DNA of 23,998 nt from a virus, in the IMG/VR virus record IMGVR_UViG_3300043466_000787, positions 1-23,998 of that record; one strand, given 5' to 3'. This document shows positions 7,166-23,376 of the stretch, in pieces; position 1 is the stretch's first letter; each line of letters opens with the position of its first letter. The notes beneath the pieces are model-generated. The model was given only the letters and a program-made list of their open reading frames with translations. It ran no database searches and was not told where the DNA came from. A program made the position numbers and the translations under genes.

Positions 7166-8980
7166 TTATATGTCGTGAGGTGCTATTCCTGCTATTCCAC
7201 TTGCTCTATCTTTTTTCGCATCGTCAATAGCAATTGGTGATTTAACATCAGGTTTAACATCTTTAATTTTATAGGTTAATTTTTCCCAATAGTGTTTACA
7301 AGTTCCCCCTGTAAATGTGGCACTTAACAAGCCACCGCCCTTATATTTCCAAATAGAATAAGGATTATTTGGGTTAGGATGTTTACCGAATCCAGGGTTT
7401 ACTGTAACATCGCCCATGGCCTCAATATCCTCTCTTCTGTAAATCTTATTGGCACTCATCATATTTTTACAAAATTCTCTTTCGGGTGATGAATTACCTG
7501 CATATCTATAACGAAAAAGATAAAAATCAGTATCGTAAATACTTCTTCGGTTTGAGTTTGCAGTTCCGGTGCTTGTGGCAAATTTATAAGTTAGCTTTTC
7601 TTCTTCATCATAGTCAACAGGTTTACACTCTATTAACTCATAATTCTCTAAATCTTCATCCTCACCTAACTCAATAAGCTCACTACCTATTTTTTTTTTT
7701 TCTTCTGATAGTTTTTGAACTGAACTTCCAACGGTAAACATTGAAACCGCCACATCTTTATCCAATTTTAAGAATTGAATTAAGAAAACCATAGCTTGTT
7801 CTTTTGTTAAAATGCCATCTTTCACATTTTGCAATATTTCAACAGCACTTGATATTTGCGCACCATTATAAGAACTTTCATTTTTGTTATTCTCAACATC
7901 AACATCCCTTAAATTTTCAAAATACAACTGCAAAGTAATTTGATTTTGACCTAAAACGTACTCAAAGCCATCTACTAAAGCGTTTTGCATTGGAGTTATA
8001 ACATTCAACATTGTTTCATCAAATGCTGTTGCAATTTCATCCGCATTACTACTAAATCCTGTTCCCGATTGAATACCTAAAATTGCACCGCTTACAACTT
8101 TGTGAGCTGTCAATAATTGCTTTCTTGCTTCTTCTGTTAAAAATTGATATTGTTGGTGTGCATCTGCTATGGTTATAGTTTCAATCGTAGTGGCATTATC
8201 CTTATTCGAGTTGAAGGATAATATAAACTTATTAGCGTTATTTGCACCTGTCCATTTTTTAATAATGTTACGTTCAAATTGTGTTTTAACCTCATCATCA
8301 GTAACACCTTCATTTACATTTATAATATGCCCTGCGCTCAATCCGTTTTTAATATGGTTCACACAATACACAGAAATTTGTTCCTCTAATTCGGCATAGT
8401 TTAATCCTGAATAATATGATGGCCTTGCAAAATAGAAATCGTTAATCGAATATTCCTTAATTACAAAGACTGTCTTTTTTTCTGTTGTGCCTTGTACAAA
8501 TACCGGTATTTGAGTTGGCGGATATTTTCTTGTATCACTCCAATCGTAAGAATACCAATATGAATTAATAACTCCATTTTCGTCAACTTCATTTGGAACT
8601 ACTTTATTTTTTGGCAAGTGATTTATTTGTGCAATTTCATTTCCTGTTTTACCTAAAATTATCTCAAAACTACATTCGTGAAATAAGGTATAATCTTTTA
8701 CTAATTTACGAACTATATCTTTTGTAAATAGTTTGTTTACTTTAGCCATTTGGATGGCCTGGTTAGCCATATAATTTGCAGTCAAACCTTGGCCATAAGT
8801 ATAAGAATAGTAACTATCTAAAATTGCTGCGTTTGTTGGAGAATATTTGTAACGATTAATAACATAATCATACCCTTCATTGTTTTTGCCATTTAATACA
8901 TAAGTTTTACCGCTTGGCTTTACTTCGTCAAAAATTTGTGTATCAAATGCGCTTAAACTTATTGTTCTTAAATCTCCCAT
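7166..8980 (-). CDS. Portal protein with extra C-terminal domain
   Basis: A 604-residue protein. Residues 40-430 carry the portal core: ILDSYYSYTYGQGL (53-66), the clip/wing text around HLPKNKVVPNEVDENG (121-136), and the stretch at 186-225 (RPSYYSGLNYAELEEQISVY, then HIKNGLSAGHIIN), close to the Bacteroidota phage portal signature. The dodecameric portal is the DNA entry channel and terminase docking site. A Lys/Glu linker (425-460) joins a C-terminal domain (460-604) with a Cys/His/Trp pattern (REFCKNM near 501-507, GGTCKHYW near 558-565) reminiscent of MuF-like modules; that link is tentative. It lies about 1.9 kb downstream of the capsid gene, in a separate unit, which is unusual. The start overlaps the upstream stop as TAATG. 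Confidence 0.85.
   Translation of the reverse strand: MGDLRTISLSAFDTQIFDEVKPSGKTYVLNGKNNEGYDYVINRYKYSPTNAAILDSYYSYTYGQGLTANYMANQAIQMAKVNKLFTKDIVRKLVKDYTLFHECSFEIILGKTGNEIAQINHLPKNKVVPNEVDENGVINSYWYSYDWSDTRKYPPTQIPVFVQGTTEKKTVFVIKEYSINDFYFARPSYYSGLNYAELEEQISVYCVNHIKNGLSAGHIINVNEGVTDDEVKTQFERNIIKKWTGANNANKFILSFNSNKDNATTIETITIADAHQQYQFLTEEARKQLLTAHKVVSGAILGIQSGTGFSSNADEIATAFDETMLNVITPMQNALVDGFEYVLGQNQITLQLYFENLRDVDVENNKNESSYNGAQISSAVEILQNVKDGILTKEQAMVFLIQFLKLDKDVAVSMFTVGSSVQKLSEEKKKIGSELIELGEDEDLENYELIECKPVDYDEEEKLTYKFATSTGTANSNRRSIYDTDFYLFRYRYAGNSSPEREFCKNMMSANKIYRREDIEAMGDVTVNPGFGKHPNPNNPYSIWKYKGGGLLSATFTGGTCKHYWEKLTYKIKDVKPDVKSPIAIDDAKKDRASGIAGIAPHDI
7690..7701 (-). other. 12-A tract in the portal mRNA (possible slippage site)
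   Basis: The portal coding strand contains 12 consecutive A residues, encoding Glu-Lys-Lys-Lys at residues 427-430, exactly at the junction between portal core and extra C-terminal domain. Loss of one A gives AAA TAG at once; gain of one A gives AAT AGG TAG. Both alternative frames therefore stop within three codons. Polymerase slippage on such tracts is known in AT-rich bacteria; whether it happens here is unknown. Confidence 0.4.
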
Positions 8981-9270
8981 TATTGATTGATTTTATAATT
9001 TTGTAAATCTGTTTGATCCGTTGCAAATGCTTTGCCTCGAAATAGTGTATTTTCATTATCGTAAACTTCAAATTCAAAAGTGCTTCCTTCGCTTACTGTT
9101 TTGTCAAATTCAAAAGTCAAATAACCATAACTATAAACAGCCGACAAATCCTCAAAAGTTTCTTCTGTGGCTTTGCTTTCATCACGTATTTTTAACGTAA
9201 CTAAACCCGCTTCATAACGAGGTATAATAGTTACCGTTTGAGTTTCTTCAGATGGTCTAAATATTATCAT
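8980..9270 (-). CDS. Small beta-rich virion-associated protein
   Basis: A 96-residue protein starting MIIFRPSEETQTVTIIPRYE. Alternating hydrophobic/polar residues over the whole length predict a beta-sandwich (for example YGYLTFEFDKTV and STFEFEVYDNENTLFRGKAF). No enzyme motif, signal peptide or TM segment. It overlaps the portal gene start by 1 nt and is the first gene after a strong terminator, carrying the bipartite ATCA/TCGTTATAT element directly before its ATG. Small beta proteins beside the portal are common in Bacteroidota phages; a minor capsid or connector role is plausible but not shown. Confidence 0.65.
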   Translation of the reverse strand: MIIFRPSEETQTVTIIPRYEAGLVTLKIRDESKATEETFEDLSAVYSYGYLTFEFDKTVSEGSTFEFEVYDNENTLFRGKAFATDQTDLQNYKINQ

Positions 9271-9300
9271 ACTTATATAACGATAAAAATAATTTTTGAT
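9271..9300 (-). promoter_or_regulatory. Bipartite late-promoter candidate, copy 1
   Basis: Read leftward: ATCA (9300-9297), 13 nt, TCGTTATAT (9283-9275), AAGT, then the ATG at 9270. The same two boxes with identical spacing precede the ATGs at 11975 and 19640. This copy lies just after the terminator of the capsid unit, where a new promoter is needed for the portal-to-lysis genes. The box is only 4 nt from ATG, so the mRNA would be leaderless or nearly so. Confidence 0.7.
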
Positions 9301-9302
9301 AC

Positions 9303-9335
9303 AAAAAAAAAGACAGCGTAACCTAATACGCTGTC
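9303..9335 (-). terminator. Strong rho-independent terminator after the capsid unit
   Basis: Perfect 9-bp stem GACAGCGTA (9312-9320) and TACGCTGTC (9327-9335) with a 6-nt loop, followed leftward by nine U residues (A run 9303-9311). It lies 23 nt past the stop of the gene ending at 9359 and separates the capsid unit from the portal unit. Confidence 0.9.
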
Positions 9336-9358
9336 CTTAAACTCTATTTTAAAAAATA

Positions 9359-10865: not shown

Positions 10866-11975
10866 TTAGTTTTTATTTTTTAATTCTGTTAATGATAATG
10901 CTAATCTTCCTTTTAATGTTTTTGGTTTTTCTGTTGTAGCTTGTATTGGTGCTACTTTTGTTTTGCTTACCGCAGGAGTTTCTGATAATTCAACTTTTAA
11001 AGTTTCGTTTTCTTTAACTTGCTCCGATAATTTAGTTTCGATTGCTGAAAATCTTTGCTCTAAATTCTCATTGAATTTAATTAGCATTGAACTAATAGCA
11101 TTTTTCAAATCTGAAACCTCACTTGTGTTTACTGATGCAGGAGCAGCCATTTCTTCAACCGGTGCTTCAACTACTTCTTCTTCTTCTTTTGCTGAAATCT
11201 CTGCAATTATGCCAACCTCTGCAACTGAAATTTTAGTTCCATCATTAAGAACGTACTCTCCAATTGGAGCAGGAACATTTCCATCAGGAGTTGCAACTGA
11301 AATAGTACCGCCAATCTCCGGAATTTCAGTTTCTGTTACCAATGTTAAACTGCCATCTTCGGTTTTCCATTCGGCCAATTTAACTTGTTTGCCTAAAAGA
11401 GTTTTAAACTCATTTAGCAAATCGTCTTTCATTTGTTTAAAATCCATATTTACTTTTGTTAATGTTACTTTTTCGTCAAACATACCTTCTATTGAAAATC
11501 CGCTTCCGTTATCTTTACACAATTGCCATTGCTCTTCATCTTCTATTTTCATAGCCACAACCCAACTGCCAACAGGCGCATCAATTCCGTATAATGCTGT
11601 TTTATCTTTTTCTAAATCTTCAACGATCCAACTCTCTACGATTGTTCCATTCAAAGTATATTTAGAATGCTCTAAATTTGCATTACTTTGATTGCCTTTT
11701 TTAAGATACAACTCCGAGGCACGTTTTATTGTTTCTTTAGAAAAATATACATAGTACTCTTCCTTTGTTTTTTCGTCAAATCGATAAATCTTTTTTTCGG
11801 GAATTAATGCAACCCCTAATAAGATTTTCTTTTCATTATCGATTTTAGCAAACTGTACTTTTTTTTCATCTGCCAAAGCAATAAACTTGCTTTCCATGGC
11901 TGGAGATCCAACTACTGCAATAGAGTCTACCCCTTGCAAATCTTCATCCGATAAAAATAGCTCGTATGTTTTCAT
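10866..11975 (-). CDS. XkdF-like prohead protease fused to scaffold domain
   Basis: A 369-residue protein. Residues 1-190 resemble the XkdF/herpesvirus-type prohead serine protease: His103 in NLEHSKYTL, the VESWIVEDLEKD strand (113-124), GSWVVAMKI (136-144) and the GFSIEGMF motif with the likely nucleophile Ser161. Such proteases cut scaffold and capsid N-termini during head maturation. The C-terminal third is acidic then Lys-rich (EEEEVVEAPVEEM near 265, a predicted coiled coil at roughly 285-335, then a Lys tail), as expected of an internal scaffold that is degraded. It directly precedes the capsid gene and carries its own bipartite ATCA/TCGTTATAT element. The exact catalytic triad is inferred. 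Confidence 0.8.
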   Translation of the reverse strand: MKTYELFLSDEDLQGVDSIAVVGSPAMESKFIALADEKKVQFAKIDNEKKILLGVALIPEKKIYRFDEKTKEEYYVYFSKETIKRASELYLKKGNQSNANLEHSKYTLNGTIVESWIVEDLEKDKTALYGIDAPVGSWVVAMKIEDEEQWQLCKDNGSGFSIEGMFDEKVTLTKVNMDFKQMKDDLLNEFKTLLGKQVKLAEWKTEDGSLTLVTETEIPEIGGTISVATPDGNVPAPIGEYVLNDGTKISVAEVGIIAEISAKEEEEVVEAPVEEMAAPASVNTSEVSDLKNAISSMLIKFNENLEQRFSAIETKLSEQVKENETLKVELSETPAVSKTKVAPIQATTEKPKTLKGRLALSLTELKNKN

Positions 11976-12005
11976 AACTATATAACGATTTTTTTTTTTA
12001 GTGAT
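11976..12005 (-). promoter_or_regulatory. Bipartite late-promoter candidate, copy 2
   Basis: Read leftward: ATCA (12005-12002), 13 nt that are almost all A, TCGTTATAT (11988-11980), AGTT, then the ATG at 11975. Both boxes and both spacings match the copies at 9270 and 19640. The intervening bases differ between copies, so the boxes rather than the whole region are conserved. No terminator lies between it and the tape measure stop at 12015, so it would add to readthrough from the tail unit and boost the head genes. Confidence 0.7.
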
Positions 12006-18922: not shown

Positions 18923-19185
18923 TTGTTTTGCTTTTTAATCATTTCAATTGCGCACTCTGACTTTTCCTTTTCAAATTCCAATATTCTTAACGTTTTTGTA
19001 ATTGGATATTCCAATACTTCTTCTTCTTCTTTGTGGTTTAATTCTGCTAAAGCTCGAATGCTAACGTACCAACCCCACTTTGCGTTAAATAGGCTCTCCC
19101 TTGTTTGCTCTTTTTCAAAATAGACATCGAATAATCCACTGTGTAATTTCCTAAGTCTTTCAGTAAAGCGAAAAAAAAAGCACAC
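18919..19185 (-). CDS. Tail assembly chaperone, -1 frame extension
   Basis: This open frame, entered by GTG at 19185 and without a good start of its own, overlaps the end of the 197-aa chaperone gene. It is best read as the C-terminal part of a -1 frameshift product: ribosomes slip at the T tract (19171-19179) and continue with RFTERLRKLHSGLFDVYFEK and then KWGWYVSIRALAELN, LRILEFEKEKSECAIEM and a Lys tail. The predicted fusion is about 240 residues, 156 from the upstream frame. A KWGWY segment followed by an Ile/Leu-rich helix looks like the C-terminal part of other Bacteroidota tail chaperones. The TGA overlaps the next ATG, as expected for a translated frame. Standalone translation from GTG is possible but less likely. 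Confidence 0.7.
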   Translation of the reverse strand: MCFFFRFTERLRKLHSGLFDVYFEKEQTRESLFNAKWGWYVSIRALAELNHKEEEEVLEYPITKTLRILEFEKEKSECAIEMIKKQNK

Positions 19186-19640
19186 GCACCAAAATAATAC
19201 TCACTTGGAGCATCTTTAAATAATTCATGAGTGCCGGTATAAGGAGCAATATCATAAAATGGCTCTGTTCTTTTAAACCAATTACGCTTAAACTTTACAA
19301 CAGGGCGATATAATATTGACATCGCTTTGTAAAACGTTTCAGGCTTGGCCATATACATCTCCAAATCGATATATTCAGCGGTTGAAAGGTTATCTAACTT
19401 TGGGATAAATCCATAATGAACACCTTTGTAAACAAATCTGCGATGAAAATTAGGATCAATGGTTAAAGTCTTATTAACTATTTCAGTTATCTCTTGAAAG
19501 TCTTTTAACTGCAATAGGTTTGTGTTTTCAATCTCACAAAAGATTGACACTAAATCCTGATTAGTTTGCTCGGAGTTTTGAAACTCGACAAATTGATTTA
19601 GTGTTATATCCTGTAGCGATGTTGGTATGTTTATCTTCAT
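19047..19640 (-). CDS. Tail assembly chaperone, short (G-type) form
   Basis: A 197-residue protein beginning MKINIPTSLQDITLNQFVEF. It is mainly helical, with an acidic region (EYIDLEMYMAKPETFYKAMS, 89-108) and an aromatic-rich stretch (KRNWFKRTEPFYDIAPYTG). Position at the head of the tail unit, and an overlapping -1 frame reached through a T tract, mark it as the G/G-T chaperone that coats the tape measure during tail assembly. Without frameshifting, translation continues 40 residues past the tract to the TGA at 19047; with it, a 240-aa form is made. The family is assigned mostly from this frameshift layout. It carries the third bipartite ATCA/TCGTTATAT element before its ATG. Confidence 0.75.
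   Translation of the reverse strand: MKINIPTSLQDITLNQFVEFQNSEQTNQDLVSIFCEIENTNLLQLKDFQEITEIVNKTLTIDPNFHRRFVYKGVHYGFIPKLDNLSTAEYIDLEMYMAKPETFYKAMSILYRPVVKFKRNWFKRTEPFYDIAPYTGTHELFKDAPSEYYFGACAFFFALLKDLGNYTVDYSMSILKKSKQGRAYLTQSGVGTLAFEL
19171..19179 (-). other. Slippery T tract for programmed -1 frameshift
   Basis: The leftward strand reads GCT TTT TTT TTC in the chaperone frame, so T TTT TTT (19179-19173) is a perfect X-XXY-YYZ heptamer. Slipping back 1 nt enters the overlapping frame, which is open to 18919. A weak hairpin (CTTT-ACTG-AAAG) follows. The nine-base run could also support transcriptional slippage or be an assembly error. Confidence 0.65.
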
Positions 19641-19670
19641 ACCAATATAACGACAAAAAAGTGTTTTGAT
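19641..19670 (-). promoter_or_regulatory. Bipartite late-promoter candidate, copy 3
   Basis: Read leftward: ATCA (19670-19667), 13 nt, TCGTTATAT (19653-19645), TGGT, then the ATG at 19640. Spacing is identical to the copies at 9270 and 11975. It falls in the 31-nt gap between the terminase gene and the tail unit, and no terminator is visible there. Confidence 0.7.
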
Positions 19671-19671
19671 T

Positions 19672-20835
19672 TTATCTAAAGTCGGAAGCTGTCTTTTGAG
19701 TTTTTATTCCTATTGTTTCCATTTCATGATAGCGAACTGCATCCATGGCGTGGTTAAACATATCTATTGGCTTATTTGTTTGGCTTCCTGTACGTTTGTC
19801 TTTATCCCAACTATATTTCCTAAATTCATTTATAAGATTAACAGAGGACTTTGTAATAAGATAATCCTGCTCCTGCATTATTTGAATACCAAAGTTAATA
19901 CTATCAGCACCCTTTTTAACACCGGTTGCGTTTAATCCTAACCGTCTTAATTCTGCTATTGATTTAGGCTCGGCACTATCACAATAGCAAGGTAAACGAT
20001 TTGTAATATACTTTGATATTTGAGCGTTTGATAATTGTGTTTGATAGCATATCTCGTTTAATATCCTTTGGTTATTCCATTTATAAACTTCTATAATTGC
20101 AGTTGGATCATTTGTATATCCAAAGTCAATTCCTGTGCCTAATAACTTTGCATCATTTGGAATAGTATCTATTTGTTTCCAATTATTAAAGATAACACCC
20201 TCCAGGCTTCCTATCTGACCAAGACCGTAAACGTTCCACCAATTAGCCCAATAAGAAGAAGTTAAAGCTTTATCTTTTGCACGTTCTATTTCGCTTACTA
20301 TGGCCTTATCTAAAGCCTCATTATCTTTATAGGTAAGTATTACAAAATCTGAATTTTTATCGCTTAAAAGCTCTGTGTGTACCCAAAACTCGTTTGTTGG
20401 ATTGTAGTCTAAATAAATAAACTTTTTAGTTCTTATTGATAGTTGCTGATAGCTTTCAAAGGTTACATTGTTGCACTCGTTTATAAATAAAATATCACGC
20501 CTCGCACCTCGAAGTTTGTCAGGCATATCGGCAGAAAAAAACTCAATATAACTTCCGTTACTAAAATTATAAATTAGGTTTGATTTATTCCAATTATCCT
20601 CTTTAAAATTACCGACCCAATTCATTATTTTAATAAAGTCTTTGATTGCACCACGCCTTAAATGCGGTATGCTTTCAGCTACTATTGATATCTCGCTGTT
20701 GGGAGTTTGAATAGCATATTGAATAAGCAAAGGGATAATGCTAAAGGTCTTTGATGAAGAAGTTCCACCTTGAACAATACGCACCCGCTTTTTAAGATTG
20801 CTTATTTTATTCTGCGCTGTCGTTTTGGTCAACAT
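19672..20835 (-). CDS. terL: Terminase large subunit
   Basis: A 387-residue packaging motor. The ATPase domain has Walker A GGTSSSKT (23-30) and Walker B DILFINE with catalytic Glu120. The C-terminal RNase H-like nuclease has acidic residues at Asp237 (GTGIDFGYTNDPTA), Asp286 (YCDSAEPKSIAEL) and Asp365 (NHAMDAVRY). The protein pumps DNA into the prohead through the portal and cuts concatemers. The gene overlaps the small-subunit gene by 29 nt. It is somewhat short for a large terminase but has all motifs. Its end is 31 nt before the tail unit, not beside a portal gene as is common. Confidence 0.95.
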   Translation of the reverse strand: MLTKTTAQNKISNLKKRVRIVQGGTSSSKTFSIIPLLIQYAIQTPNSEISIVAESIPHLRRGAIKDFIKIMNWVGNFKEDNWNKSNLIYNFSNGSYIEFFSADMPDKLRGARRDILFINECNNVTFESYQQLSIRTKKFIYLDYNPTNEFWVHTELLSDKNSDFVILTYKDNEALDKAIVSEIERAKDKALTSSYWANWWNVYGLGQIGSLEGVIFNNWKQIDTIPNDAKLLGTGIDFGYTNDPTAIIEVYKWNNQRILNEICYQTQLSNAQISKYITNRLPCYCDSAEPKSIAELRRLGLNATGVKKGADSINFGIQIMQEQDYLITKSSVNLINEFRKYSWDKDKRTGSQTNKPIDMFNHAMDAVRYHEMETIGIKTQKTASDFR

Positions 20836-21184
20836 CTAAATCGATTGTTTTAAATATTGGTTTCTCAACTTCTTCAACTGCATTGTGAGTCATAGATAGT
20901 TTGCGCAGCTCTTCAGGAGTTGAAATTAATTTCATCAATCCCATTTGCAAAGTTGGATTGTCAGATTGATACCACTTGGATCGCATTGATGTTTTAATTT
21001 GAGTTTTGTTAATTGAAATTAACTCTTTTAATGTATCCAATTCATCCGACTTATTAGGAAAAAAATCATAAAAAGTAGAACGACTGCAAGGCAAAAAGTC
21101 AGGAACTTCATCCATAAAAAACAATTTATGTTTAACTACCATTTCTTTTGCCTGTTCAAATATTTTAATCTTGTCGTATGCCAT
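20807..21184 (-). CDS. terS: Terminase small subunit
   Basis: A 125-residue protein directly before and overlapping the large-subunit gene. Residues 8-45 contain a likely helix-turn-helix (KHKLFFMDEVPDFLPCSRST, 18-37, then FYDFFPNKSDE), followed by a helix (LKELISINKTQIKTSMRSKW), a FYDFFPNK motif typical of small terminase subunits in Bacteroidota phages, and an acidic tail. It would bind the packaging site and present DNA to the large subunit. The assignment rests on position and HTH pattern. It overlaps the methyltransferase gene by 20 nt. Confidence 0.75.
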   Translation of the reverse strand: MAYDKIKIFEQAKEMVVKHKLFFMDEVPDFLPCSRSTFYDFFPNKSDELDTLKELISINKTQIKTSMRSKWYQSDNPTLQMGLMKLISTPEELRKLSMTHNAVEEVEKPIFKTIDLDVDQNDSAE

Positions 21185-22346
21185 TGCGTTTTATTTCAAG
21201 TGTTGGATCTAACTTTTTCATTCGGTCAATTATAACTTGGCAGTATTTAGGGTCTAGTTCCATTCCGTAGCATTTGCGATTTAATTGGTGTGATGCAACC
21301 ATTGTTGAGCCACTACCTAAAAAACAATCATATATGATGTCTTTTAATTTACTACTATTTTCTATTGCTCTCGATGGAAGTTCAACTGGCTTTTGTGTTG
21401 GATGGTAATCGTTTCTTTGGTCTTTTTTTAATTCCCAAACACTTTTCTCATCAGTCGCACCAAACCACTGTGGATTTTTACCTTTCTTAAAAGCATATAT
21501 GCAAGGCTCAAAGTTTGGAATGTATTGTGCCATAAATGCTCCTAATCCACTTTTTACTTTATACCAACACAATATTGCCCTTACTTCTAAATTTAACTCT
21601 GAAAATGATAAAAATGTTTCTTGTGCTTTATTAGTACTAAACCAAATGTAAAAAGCTGAATAATCCTTGCTGAATAAGTCTGCATTCAATAAACTGTCCC
21701 TAAAAAGATTTGTTAAGTCTTGACCTTGTAAAGTGTCGTTTTCAATTCCTTTTCTTTTCTTTTCATTATGACCTCCCGTATAACTAACTCCATAAGGCGG
21801 GTCAGTAAATACCATATCAGCTTTCTCTCCATTCATTAACTTTGCAACCGTATCACTGCAAGTACTATCTCCACATAACAACCGATGCTCTCCAATCTCA
21901 AACAAATCTCCAAGTACAATATCGGTTTCAATACCGTCTTCAGGAACTTCAAAGTCATCCTCTTCAGCTTCTAGTACTTCAGTATTAAAATCAATCGGTA
22001 AATCCAACCCCCAGGATTCCAATTCTTCACTATCCCATTCGTTTGCTAATATTTCCCAATCCCACTCGCCACCGCTTGTATTATCTTTGATTAAAAACTC
22101 TCTTTGCTGATCTTCAGTTAGGTCAGTTACAATAATAGGTATTTCTTTTAATCCGGCTTCTTTACATGCCTTATATCGCATATTGCCACCAAGAATAATC
22201 ATATCCTTATTAACTACAATAGGCCGGATGTTTAGCATTTCAGGAAAGTCTTTAATAGACTGAACTAACTTTTTAAACTTATCGTCTTTAATTAAACGAG
22301 GATTGTTTGGATTAAGTTTAACATTCTGTATTTTTTCTAATATCAT
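21165..22346 (-). CDS. ParB-like domain fused to beta-class DNA methyltransferase
   Basis: A 393-residue fusion. Residues 8-90 form a ParB-like N-terminal domain (LNPNNPRLIKDDKFKKLVQS, then IILGGNMRYKA with the GGxxR motif at 53-57). Residues 140-380 are an N6-adenine/N4-cytosine methyltransferase with DPPY (182-185) before the AdoMet-binding FLGSGST motif (342-348), the beta-class order, and HPTQKP (315-320). An acidic linker (124-140) joins the two. No restriction enzyme is adjacent, so it is probably an orphan enzyme that protects phage DNA or marks packaging DNA. Its place directly before the terminase genes suggests late use. The target site cannot be told. Confidence 0.9.
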   Translation of the reverse strand: MILEKIQNVKLNPNNPRLIKDDKFKKLVQSIKDFPEMLNIRPIVVNKDMIILGGNMRYKACKEAGLKEIPIIVTDLTEDQQREFLIKDNTSGGEWDWEILANEWDSEELESWGLDLPIDFNTEVLEAEEDDFEVPEDGIETDIVLGDLFEIGEHRLLCGDSTCSDTVAKLMNGEKADMVFTDPPYGVSYTGGHNEKKRKGIENDTLQGQDLTNLFRDSLLNADLFSKDYSAFYIWFSTNKAQETFLSFSELNLEVRAILCWYKVKSGLGAFMAQYIPNFEPCIYAFKKGKNPQWFGATDEKSVWELKKDQRNDYHPTQKPVELPSRAIENSSKLKDIIYDCFLGSGSTMVASHQLNRKCYGMELDPKYCQVIIDRMKKLDPTLEIKRNGIRQD

Positions 22347-22669
22347 AAAAGCTTCTTTAATTTCTTAATAAATGACTTCCAAACCCCAGGACAATTTGTG
22401 CAAGGATCAAATGGCTTCACTCGGTAGCATTTAAAATATATGCTTGAGATTTTATGTTGCATTTCTTTATTTAGTTCTGTTGGATTAGATGCAAACAATG
22501 TACCTAAATATTCTCTTTCGTCATCTTCTAAATCCAATGCTCCAATCGGGAAAAGATTGTTAAGCTTTTCTTTTCTTTTATTGCAGTCATCACATGGCTC
22601 AATTCCTACTGCTTCGGTTATGGATGCTATTATATCTCCCGCTCCTGTAATTTTTTTACGTCTTCCCAT
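22343..22669 (-). CDS. Hypothetical Cys-containing protein
   Basis: A 108-residue protein with a Gly-rich start (MGRRKKITGAGDIIASITEA), a CxxC pair (Cys26, Cys29) followed by KRKEKLNNLFP, and a second Cys group (Cys81, Cys90, Cys93, pattern C-x8-CTNC). Two CxxC-type pairs could together bind one zinc. Similar proteins with a GAGD start and a CxxC motif occur in Bacteroidota phages near the terminase genes. It overlaps the sigma-like gene by 40 nt and the methyltransferase gene by 4 nt. Function unknown. Confidence 0.65.
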   Translation of the reverse strand: MGRRKKITGAGDIIASITEAVGIEPCDDCNKRKEKLNNLFPIGALDLEDDEREYLGTLFASNPTELNKEMQHKISSIYFKCYRVKPFDPCTNCPGVWKSFIKKLKKLL

Positions 22670-23094
22670 AGTTGTTCTTTTGTTTTTTTTACCGTTTTTT
22701 GAATCACCAATAAATTTATGCCGGTTTGTCGAGATAATTCTCGTTGGCTCATCTCCTGGGTTGTTACTTTTAAAAGTTCACGTTCAAAAAAAGGTAATTG
22801 TTTTACTTTTTTTAGTGTTATTTCTTTTATTTCGTCTAATTCAAAATCGTAAGTATCAGCGAAGATATTAAAATTATCAATTAGTTCAACTGTTTTTGTT
22901 TTTTTGTCTTTTAATTTGTCAAGCCAAATGGACTTGATTGCAAAGTAAATATAAAAATCATTGACCTTTTTATCGTAATTAGCAAATTTAAGATACATAT
23001 CCTGGACAAGGTCGTCAGCGGTATCATGGCTTTTACAAATATGAAATGCCATTTTGCGCCAATCTTTATCTCGCTTTGCTAATTCTTCAAGCAT
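22630..23094 (-). CDS. Sigma-70-like factor (regions 2 and 4)
   Basis: A 154-residue protein with the layout of a short (ECF-like) sigma factor. Residues 12-60 match region 2: HDTADDLVQDMYLKFANY (23-40), then FAIKSIWLDKLKDKK. Residues 96-146 match region 4: QLPFFERELLKVTTQEMSQR (99-118), ELSRQTGINLLVIQKTVKKT (119-138). The HTH in region 4 would read a -35 element and region 2 the -10. The linker between (66-95) is acidic. Such genes occur in Bacteroidota phages but their targets are unknown. Here it lies in the first leftward unit, upstream of three copies of a non-host bipartite promoter-like element, making it the natural candidate to read them. It could also be a sigma-derived regulator without RNA polymerase activity. 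Confidence 0.8.
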   Translation of the reverse strand: MLEELAKRDKDWRKMAFHICKSHDTADDLVQDMYLKFANYDKKVNDFYIYFAIKSIWLDKLKDKKTKTVELIDNFNIFADTYDFELDEIKEITLKKVKQLPFFERELLKVTTQEMSQRELSRQTGINLLVIQKTVKKTKEQLWEDVKKLQEREI

Positions 23095-23310
23095 TTAGTT
23101 CTTATCCATTAGGTTTCTAATAGCAATATTTTTTTTAACCTCATCGTACAGCTCCCCATTAAACTCCAATATAAAATCAGTTCCTTTTATAACCAAGCAC
23201 ATTGTCTCGCTGTCAATCACATAACAGCCATTGACATCAGAGATAACAAAATCGAAATTTCTATATTCCTGATCCTCTTCCGTTTGAATTAAAACTCTTG
23301 GCTGCTTCAT
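23095..23310 (-). CDS. Hypothetical 71-aa protein, first leftward gene
   Basis: A small, acidic, beta-rich protein (MKQPRVLIQTEEDQEYRNFD, then FVISDVNGCYVIDSETMCLV and FILEFNGELYDEV). No family recognised, no TM segment. Its stop adjoins the ATG of the sigma-like gene without overlap. An exact -7 element TATCTTTG ends 5 nt before its ATG, so its mRNA would be leaderless or nearly so. As the first gene of the leftward block, it could be a regulator, but nothing in the sequence shows this. Confidence 0.6.
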   Translation of the reverse strand: MKQPRVLIQTEEDQEYRNFDFVISDVNGCYVIDSETMCLVIKGTDFILEFNGELYDEVKKNIAIRNLMDKN

Positions 23311-23315
23311 AAAAA

Positions 23316-23323
23316 CAAAGATA
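23316..23323 (-). promoter_or_regulatory. Host-type -7 element before the first leftward gene
   Basis: Leftward, TATCTTTG (23323-23316) matches TAnnTTTG exactly. No TTG lies 19 nt upstream, so the promoter may need an activator. The start would fall at about 23312, one or two bases before the ATG at 23310. Confidence 0.45.
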
Positions 23324-23345: not shown

Positions 23346-23376
23346 TTTGGTAGTTTATTATAAATAACTATATTTG
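23346..23376 (+). promoter_or_regulatory. Consensus host-type rightward promoter
   Basis: TTTG (23346-23349), 19 nt, TATATTTG (23369-23376): an exact match to the Bacteroidota consensus with optimal spacing. The start should be near 23382 with a 25-nt leader before the ATG at 23408. An imperfect 18-bp palindrome (AGTT at 23352 to AACT at 23369, TTATAA centre) fills the spacer and could be an operator. It is divergent from the leftward block. Confidence 0.8.

Follow-up and report, generated by a model that had tools for sequence, protein, structure and literature searches.

Transcription of the late genes

How does a tailed phage of Bacteroidota switch on its late genes, and does it encode the specificity factor that would do so? 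The question is raised by a 23,998-base virus record from IMG/VR, analyzed at its full length and called the window here, from such a phage. Its late genes lie on the minus strand and encode the terminase large subunit, tape measure, an XkdF-type head protease, a capsid candidate, and portal. An initial annotation proposed that a sigma-like gene at 22630–23094, in a leftward unit with a host-type –7 element, is expressed first by host polymerase, and that its product then activates late units from three bipartite elements, for which no coordinates were given. It further suggested that this would be a new circuit, comparable to that of T4 gp55. We have located the elements, asked what kind of protein the gene encodes, and followed both through related phages.

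A predicted two-domain ECF-type sigma factor

The putative sigma gene is second in its leftward unit, which also carries a ParB–methylase fusion and the terminase gene. The features of the promoter-proximal part of this unit are as follows.

23316..23323, minus strand: host-type –7 element TATCTTTG (Bacteroidota consensus), 5 nt before the first ATG (23310) of the sigma unit
23095..23310, minus strand: 71-aa gene, first of the sigma unit (ORF list)
22630..23094, minus strand: predicted ECF-type phage sigma factor, 154 aa (family profiles, PDB profile search, predicted fold)
22894..23094, minus strand: sigma region 2 (residues 1–67), containing the ADDLVQDMY motif for core binding and the helix that reads –10
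22918..22920, minus strand: codon of D59, the residue that aligns to N92 of sigma-H and changes together with promoter base –11
22636..22845, minus strand: sigma region 4 (residues 84–153), the –35 reading domain (match to 2h27)
22343..22669, minus strand: 108-aa four-cysteine protein, overlapping the sigma gene; a neighbor kept in relatives (locus counts, alignment)

Taken as a single sequence, the 154-residue protein matches sigma factor families weakly: Pfam Sigma70_r2 at E=4.6e-4 and TIGR02937 sigma70-ECF at E=6.8e-9, both under the curated cut-offs, and the sigma factor family phrog_1740 at 4e-5. The family profile (33 relatives) matches sigma factors only in the PDB, mainly of the ECF type (best 5uxx, 7.5e-8). 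The AlphaFold (AF2) model (pLDDT 83.7) has two helical domains, with a linker of low confidence between them at approximately residues 68–83, and its top structural matches in the PDB are likewise sigma factors, mainly ECF, with each domain matching separately. The N-terminal domain (helices 2–67) superimposes on ECF region 2 of 5uxx (2.3 Å over 72 residues) and 1h3l (1.9 Å over 62), and the C-terminal domain, which contains the helix-turn-helix of region 4, on 2h27 (sigma-E region 4 on –35 DNA; 1.7 Å over 68 residues) and 4nqw (1.7 Å over 62). We used the single-domain matches alone; the linker is flexible, and full-length superposition gives a poor rmsd (15–18 Å). The ADDLVQDMY stretch is the best-conserved part of the protein and near-invariant among relatives, and the absence of regions 1.2 and 3 and the short linker (154 residues) are ECF traits. 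Thus, the weak single-sequence scores, the sigma-only profile matches, and the two-domain fold together identify the protein, by sequence and predicted fold, as a complete, minimal, two-domain ECF-type sigma factor, in which both of the regions initially recognized, 2 and 4, are confirmed.

The four-cysteine protein encoded next to it may either act with the sigma factor as a partner or regulate it. Of the 161 loci that have both genes, 146 carry its relative no more than 100 nt beyond the sigma gene on the downstream side, and an alignment of the relatives shows a conserved motif, GLGD...C..R..LN...CxxC. A predicted structure of this protein (pLDDT 77.7) gave no significant match in the PDB.

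Three bipartite boxes precede late units

The pattern ATCA-N13-TCGTTATAT-N4-ATG occurs exactly three times in the window, always on the minus strand, versus 0.004 copies expected from base composition, and these copies correspond to the three elements of the initial annotation.

19645..19670, minus strand: predicted late promoter 1, with ATCA at 19667–19670 (–35-like) and TCGTTATAT at 19645–19653 (–10-like); predicted start ~19640
19047..19640, minus strand: gene after TerL ("BOX1g"), behind promoter 1
11980..12005, minus strand: predicted late promoter 2, upstream of the genes for head protease and capsid; predicted start ~11975
10866..11975, minus strand: head maturation protease (Peptidase_S78_2/XkdF type; match 5e-14), behind promoter 2
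9309..9338, minus strand: terminator-like hairpin immediately before promoter 3, ending the capsid unit
9275..9300, minus strand: predicted late promoter 3, between the hairpin and the portal unit; predicted start ~9270
8980..9270, minus strand: 96-aa gene preceding the portal gene, behind promoter 3

The boxes thus lie 4 nt before an ATG, beside the terminase gene (at the gene after it), the head protease and capsid genes, and the portal genes. A looser version of the pattern gives 0.19 matches per shuffled window, and its sole additional match in the real sequence is on the other strand. The boxes have the textbook ECF form (AAC/N15–17/CGTT) on the late strand, and none of those read contains the host TAnnTTTG (–7) element. 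A sigma-70 consensus scan of the window was of no use here, returning 63 promoter-like sites versus 66 expected.

These features bear on the possibility that the phage protein belongs with the sigma-like activators ArpU, RinA, and Ltr and would aid the host sigma factor at late promoters rather than replace it. Its gene does occupy the position that late regulators have in Firmicutes, upstream of terminase where early and late genes meet (PMC13123087). But region 2 of the protein is complete, contains the motif for core binding, and has the –10 readout of ECF factors, and the boxes lack the host TAnnTTTG. The binding sites of Ltr proteins are repeats that lie upstream of a sigma-A promoter (PMC13123087). 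We therefore regard an activator as very unlikely, although it is the strongest of the three alternatives considered here.

Across genomes, the core of the first box is found again at other starts, in 48 of 1635 ORFs on the same strand versus 1 of 661 on the opposite strand. Box variants are common to two or three promoters within a genome and differ between sigma clades: two promoters each carry TGTT in L070, AGTT in L098, TATT in L278, and CGTT in L063, and three promoters each carry CGAT in L145 and L156. Because the clade variants change together within a genome, the promoters of one genome seem to follow a common reader.

Co-occurrence of sigma factor and box in related phages

Over 550 contigs are related to the window phage by one late gene. 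About 100 related viral contigs combine a sigma relative with a conserved gene order (sigma, four-cysteine protein, terminase, next gene), and most of these have such a box. Scans based on sigma gave 75 viral loci and one MAG contig, the latter, with a window-type phage, from a single scan of genome contigs. In most loci, sigma and the four-cysteine gene precede TerL in this order at the end of the early cluster, just upstream of terminase. The box precedes the post-terminase gene in many relatives whose sigma proteins are approximately 35–72% identical, and its general form is (A/T)(A/T)CA, 14–16 bases, [C/T/A]GTT. In the 78 loci scored, AACA, ATCA, or TACA is followed after 14–16 nt by NNTT (mostly CGTT), with clade-specific spacing. 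With AAC at –35 and CGT at –10, this general form is that of an ECF promoter. Nine of 41 pattern matches in viral contigs (L030, L032, L035, L037, L038, L041, L044, L046, and L050) were taken as chance because these contigs have no genes in common with the window phage.

The proposal that sigma and box should occur together was examined in a set collected without sigma, using the post-terminase gene as bait and requiring at least 9.5 kb of sequence upstream. Of the 29 contigs in this set, 28 have sigma upstream of the bait gene and in the same orientation. The box variants track the sigma clades. The one case of a box without the sigma gene is L303 (IMGVR_UViG_3300022836_000035), which has a box-like AACA...TGTT site before the post-terminase gene and, in its 25.6-kb record, no recognizable sigma or four-cysteine protein. 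This linear record may be a fragment, or the phage may rely on another sigma factor. Conversely, several sigma-bearing clades, including L139, L169, and L310–L323, have no recognizable box before the post-terminase gene; their late promoters may be of another form or in another place. Among these, L139, L169, L310, L311, L312, L319, and L323 have Q at residue 59.

The only cultured relatives found are the Nonlabens phages P12024L and P12024S, whose sigma proteins (P12024L_35 and P12024S_33) are annotated merely as "containing Sigma-70 region 2". They resemble the window phage in gene order and in having five boxes, each at an annotated CDS start, versus 0.2 in shuffles. They differ in that sigma is 31% identical, the boxes read AACAAA...CGTTAATA with a longer spacer, and none lies directly after TerL.

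Residue 59 of the sigma factor co-varies with promoter base –11

Comparison of sigma type with box type reveals a correspondence between one residue and one base. In 83 sigma/box pairs, D, N, or E at residue 59 occurs with G at –11 (numbered with A of the ATG as +1), and Q, R, M, S, or Y with A or C, with no exception (73/0 versus 0/10). This table excludes L114, whose start is doubtful, and L304, which has a gap at residue 59. Box calls in the variant clades were made partly by eye and later checked at a fixed register, where the box was chosen by the upstream element and TT only, without looking at –11. The fixed register gives the same picture except in three D rows, two with boxes shifted by one base and one boxless. 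Among all protein columns, residue 59 has the highest excess mutual information with –11 (0.51, versus 0.28 for the next column) and also ranks first for –12. On a tree made without column 59, residue 59 and base –11 each change 7 times, marking the same rows; 5 of 5 independent pairs on supported branches agree (sign test p=0.06). These independent changes are few, with only 5 pairs on well-supported branches and 7 on the best tree.

The ECF factors sigma-H of Mycobacterium tuberculosis and sigma-R of Streptomyces coelicolor, cellular stress sigma factors with anti-sigma factors, differ from the phage protein in having low sequence identity to it. They recognize a –35 GGAACA and a –10 GTT at –11 to –9 (PMC6411747). 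The phage GTT also falls at –11 to –9, as in sigma-H, provided that transcription starts at the A of the ATG. D59 aligns, via sigma-R, with N92 of sigma-H, which in the sigma-H open complex hydrogen-bonds the C of the –11 G:C pair (PMC6411747). Thus, the residue that co-varies is the known contact for that base pair, and the co-change of residue 59 and base –11 points to the phage sigma factor as the reader of the late promoter.

Alternatively, the boxes could be promoters that serve an ECF sigma factor encoded by the host, with the phage protein doing something else. Bacteroidota have many ECF sigma factors, and the shape of the box is generic for the class. However, the box variant tracks phage residue 59 through 7 changes, and the promoters within a genome change together; a host factor leaves unexplained the coupling to a phage residue at a position of contact in a solved complex. 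We consider this even less probable than an activator.

Other couplings are less clear. Residue 62 and base –12 show a pattern that is suggestive only, as it is not tree-corrected: R62 occurs with C in 28 of 28 cases, and K62 with C in 20 or A in 12. The –35 letters and the spacer also showed coupling to region 4, most strongly at column 128, but the length of the spacer varies with the large clades, and we make no claim for this coupling. In one lineage only (L136, L142, L145, and L156), CGAT replaces CGTT, and in L136 and L142, the members with sigma in hand, residue 55, which aligns with the –10-contacting N88 of sigma-H, is G.

Order of expression and form of the late mRNAs

The element TATCTTTG, spaced N5 from the first ATG of the sigma unit, matches the Flavobacterium –7 consensus, which lies 4–5 nt from the start (PMC6847099), and is kept in close relatives. 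In 23 of 104 loci, versus 3.9 in shuffles, an ATG no more than 600 nt from sigma is preceded by such a –7 element. An own-type late box within 400 nt upstream of sigma was found in none of 84 genomes. With a host element and no late box before sigma, host polymerase would make sigma first and the late units would follow. The order initially proposed, in which host-made sigma turns on the late units, thus gains support from the –7 element and the absence of late boxes (0/84). A second host-type –7 element, TATATTTG (23369–23376, plus strand), faces rightward to small genes from 23408, so that two units diverge from one host-promoter region.

The distance from the –10 box to the ATG is 12 nt in 63 of 77 cases, and on this spacing the late mRNAs are predicted to be leaderless or nearly so. 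Most mRNAs of F. johnsoniae are leadered, 87% with leaders of over 10 nt (PMC6847099). The nearly fixed spacing, and the fact that Bacteroidota lack Shine–Dalgarno sequences (PMC6847099), might instead suggest that TCGTTATAT-N4-ATG is a signal for translation initiation or mRNA stability and no promoter, but this is the least probable alternative, given the second element (AACA/ATCA) 14–16 nt upstream with clade-specific spacing, the co-variation of base –11 with a sigma residue, and the presence of the box at unit starts only and its absence from most phage genes.

Discussion

Taken together, these data, all of them comparative, make it very probable that the phage ECF-type protein is the specificity subunit for the phage late promoters, acting on host core polymerase. 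In the mechanism we propose, host polymerase with the host main sigma factor would transcribe the leftward unit from the host-type –7 element, producing the phage sigma factor. This would join host core polymerase and direct it to the three ATCA-N13-TCGTTATAT boxes, where region 4 would read the AAC/ATC element, region 2 would read CGTT, and D59 would read the –11 base pair. The late units, whose expression would then depend on the phage factor, would start at or beside their ATG, yielding leaderless or nearly leaderless mRNAs.

How new is such a circuit? The suggestion of a phage sigma factor with its own promoter set is supported, but the logic is already known from phiEco32 gp36 and its relatives (Kuravirus ECF sigma; 7-11, SU10, and GAP52). 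Sigma factors of this type direct host core to a few phage promoters before structural genes (PMC4281155, PMC4331800, PMC7881722), and the present phage likewise appears to combine an encoded ECF sigma factor with dedicated promoters preceding structural genes. The two differ in that the host of phiEco32 belongs to a different phylum and its motif is tAATGTATAtA, versus AAC-N15–17-CGTT in the present phage. Moreover, 7-11 and SU10 have sigma-dependent middle promoters, from which the 7-11 sigma gene is transcribed, whereas here late boxes precede sigma in 0 of 84 genomes. Without an own-type box before sigma, the system is similar in working to the phiEco32 gp36 type but not a member of it.

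T4 gp55 and gp33 also accomplish a late-gene switch via a small divergent sigma factor on host core (PMC2988020). There, gp55 resembles domain 2 only and gp33 separately mimics domain 4, acting on an 8-bp promoter with activation by the sliding clamp; in the present phage, both sigma domains are predicted in one chain, and the promoter is bipartite. Being a two-domain ECF-type factor, the phage protein has a closer precedent in phiEco32 gp36 than in the split gp55/gp33. A review of T4 asks why no fused late sigma factor has been found (PMC2988020). Finally, RinA, Ltr, and ArpU of Firmicutes share the place at the early/late border upstream of terminase and a role in late transcription, but these are activators, binding repeats near a host-sigma promoter, rather than sigma factors with two domains (PMC13123087).

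In the open-access papers searched, we found no description of late transcription control of this kind in phages of Bacteroidota. Judged by that literature, the novelty lies in the Bacteroidota lineage, a class of bipartite promoters of the AAC/CGTT form, the code linking residue 59 to base –11 in a phage family, and the predicted leaderless arrangement. More broadly, we think it reasonably likely that a very large lineage of Bacteroidota phages, most of them uncultured, conducts its entire late program through one two-domain sigma factor with leaderless mRNAs, and that its promoter code has been rewritten approximately 7 times, with residue 59 matched by base –11. If so, several consequences follow. 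First, a sigma factor, its promoters, and a residue-to-base code would be in hand for a lineage of over 550 contigs. Second, the approximately 7 rewritings by single changes at residue 59 would be a natural record of sigma–promoter co-evolution, providing natural pairs that are one residue and one base apart. Third, the protein would be a fused two-domain late sigma factor, the kind whose absence the T4 review remarked on (PMC2988020). The Nonlabens phages P12024L and P12024S would then be the cultured model pair.

Other genes of the unit vary among relatives. The fusion of a ParB-N domain to an N6/N4 DNA methylase (21165–22346, minus strand), within the sigma/terminase unit, is missing or replaced in several close relatives. 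TerL (19672–20835) is of two types, only approximately 33% alike, among phages with 95–98% identical sigma factors and near-identical boxes; one type is found in the window and L003, L006, L007, L009, and L010, and the other in L002, L005, and L012. Thus, TerL has been swapped within a fixed regulatory frame.
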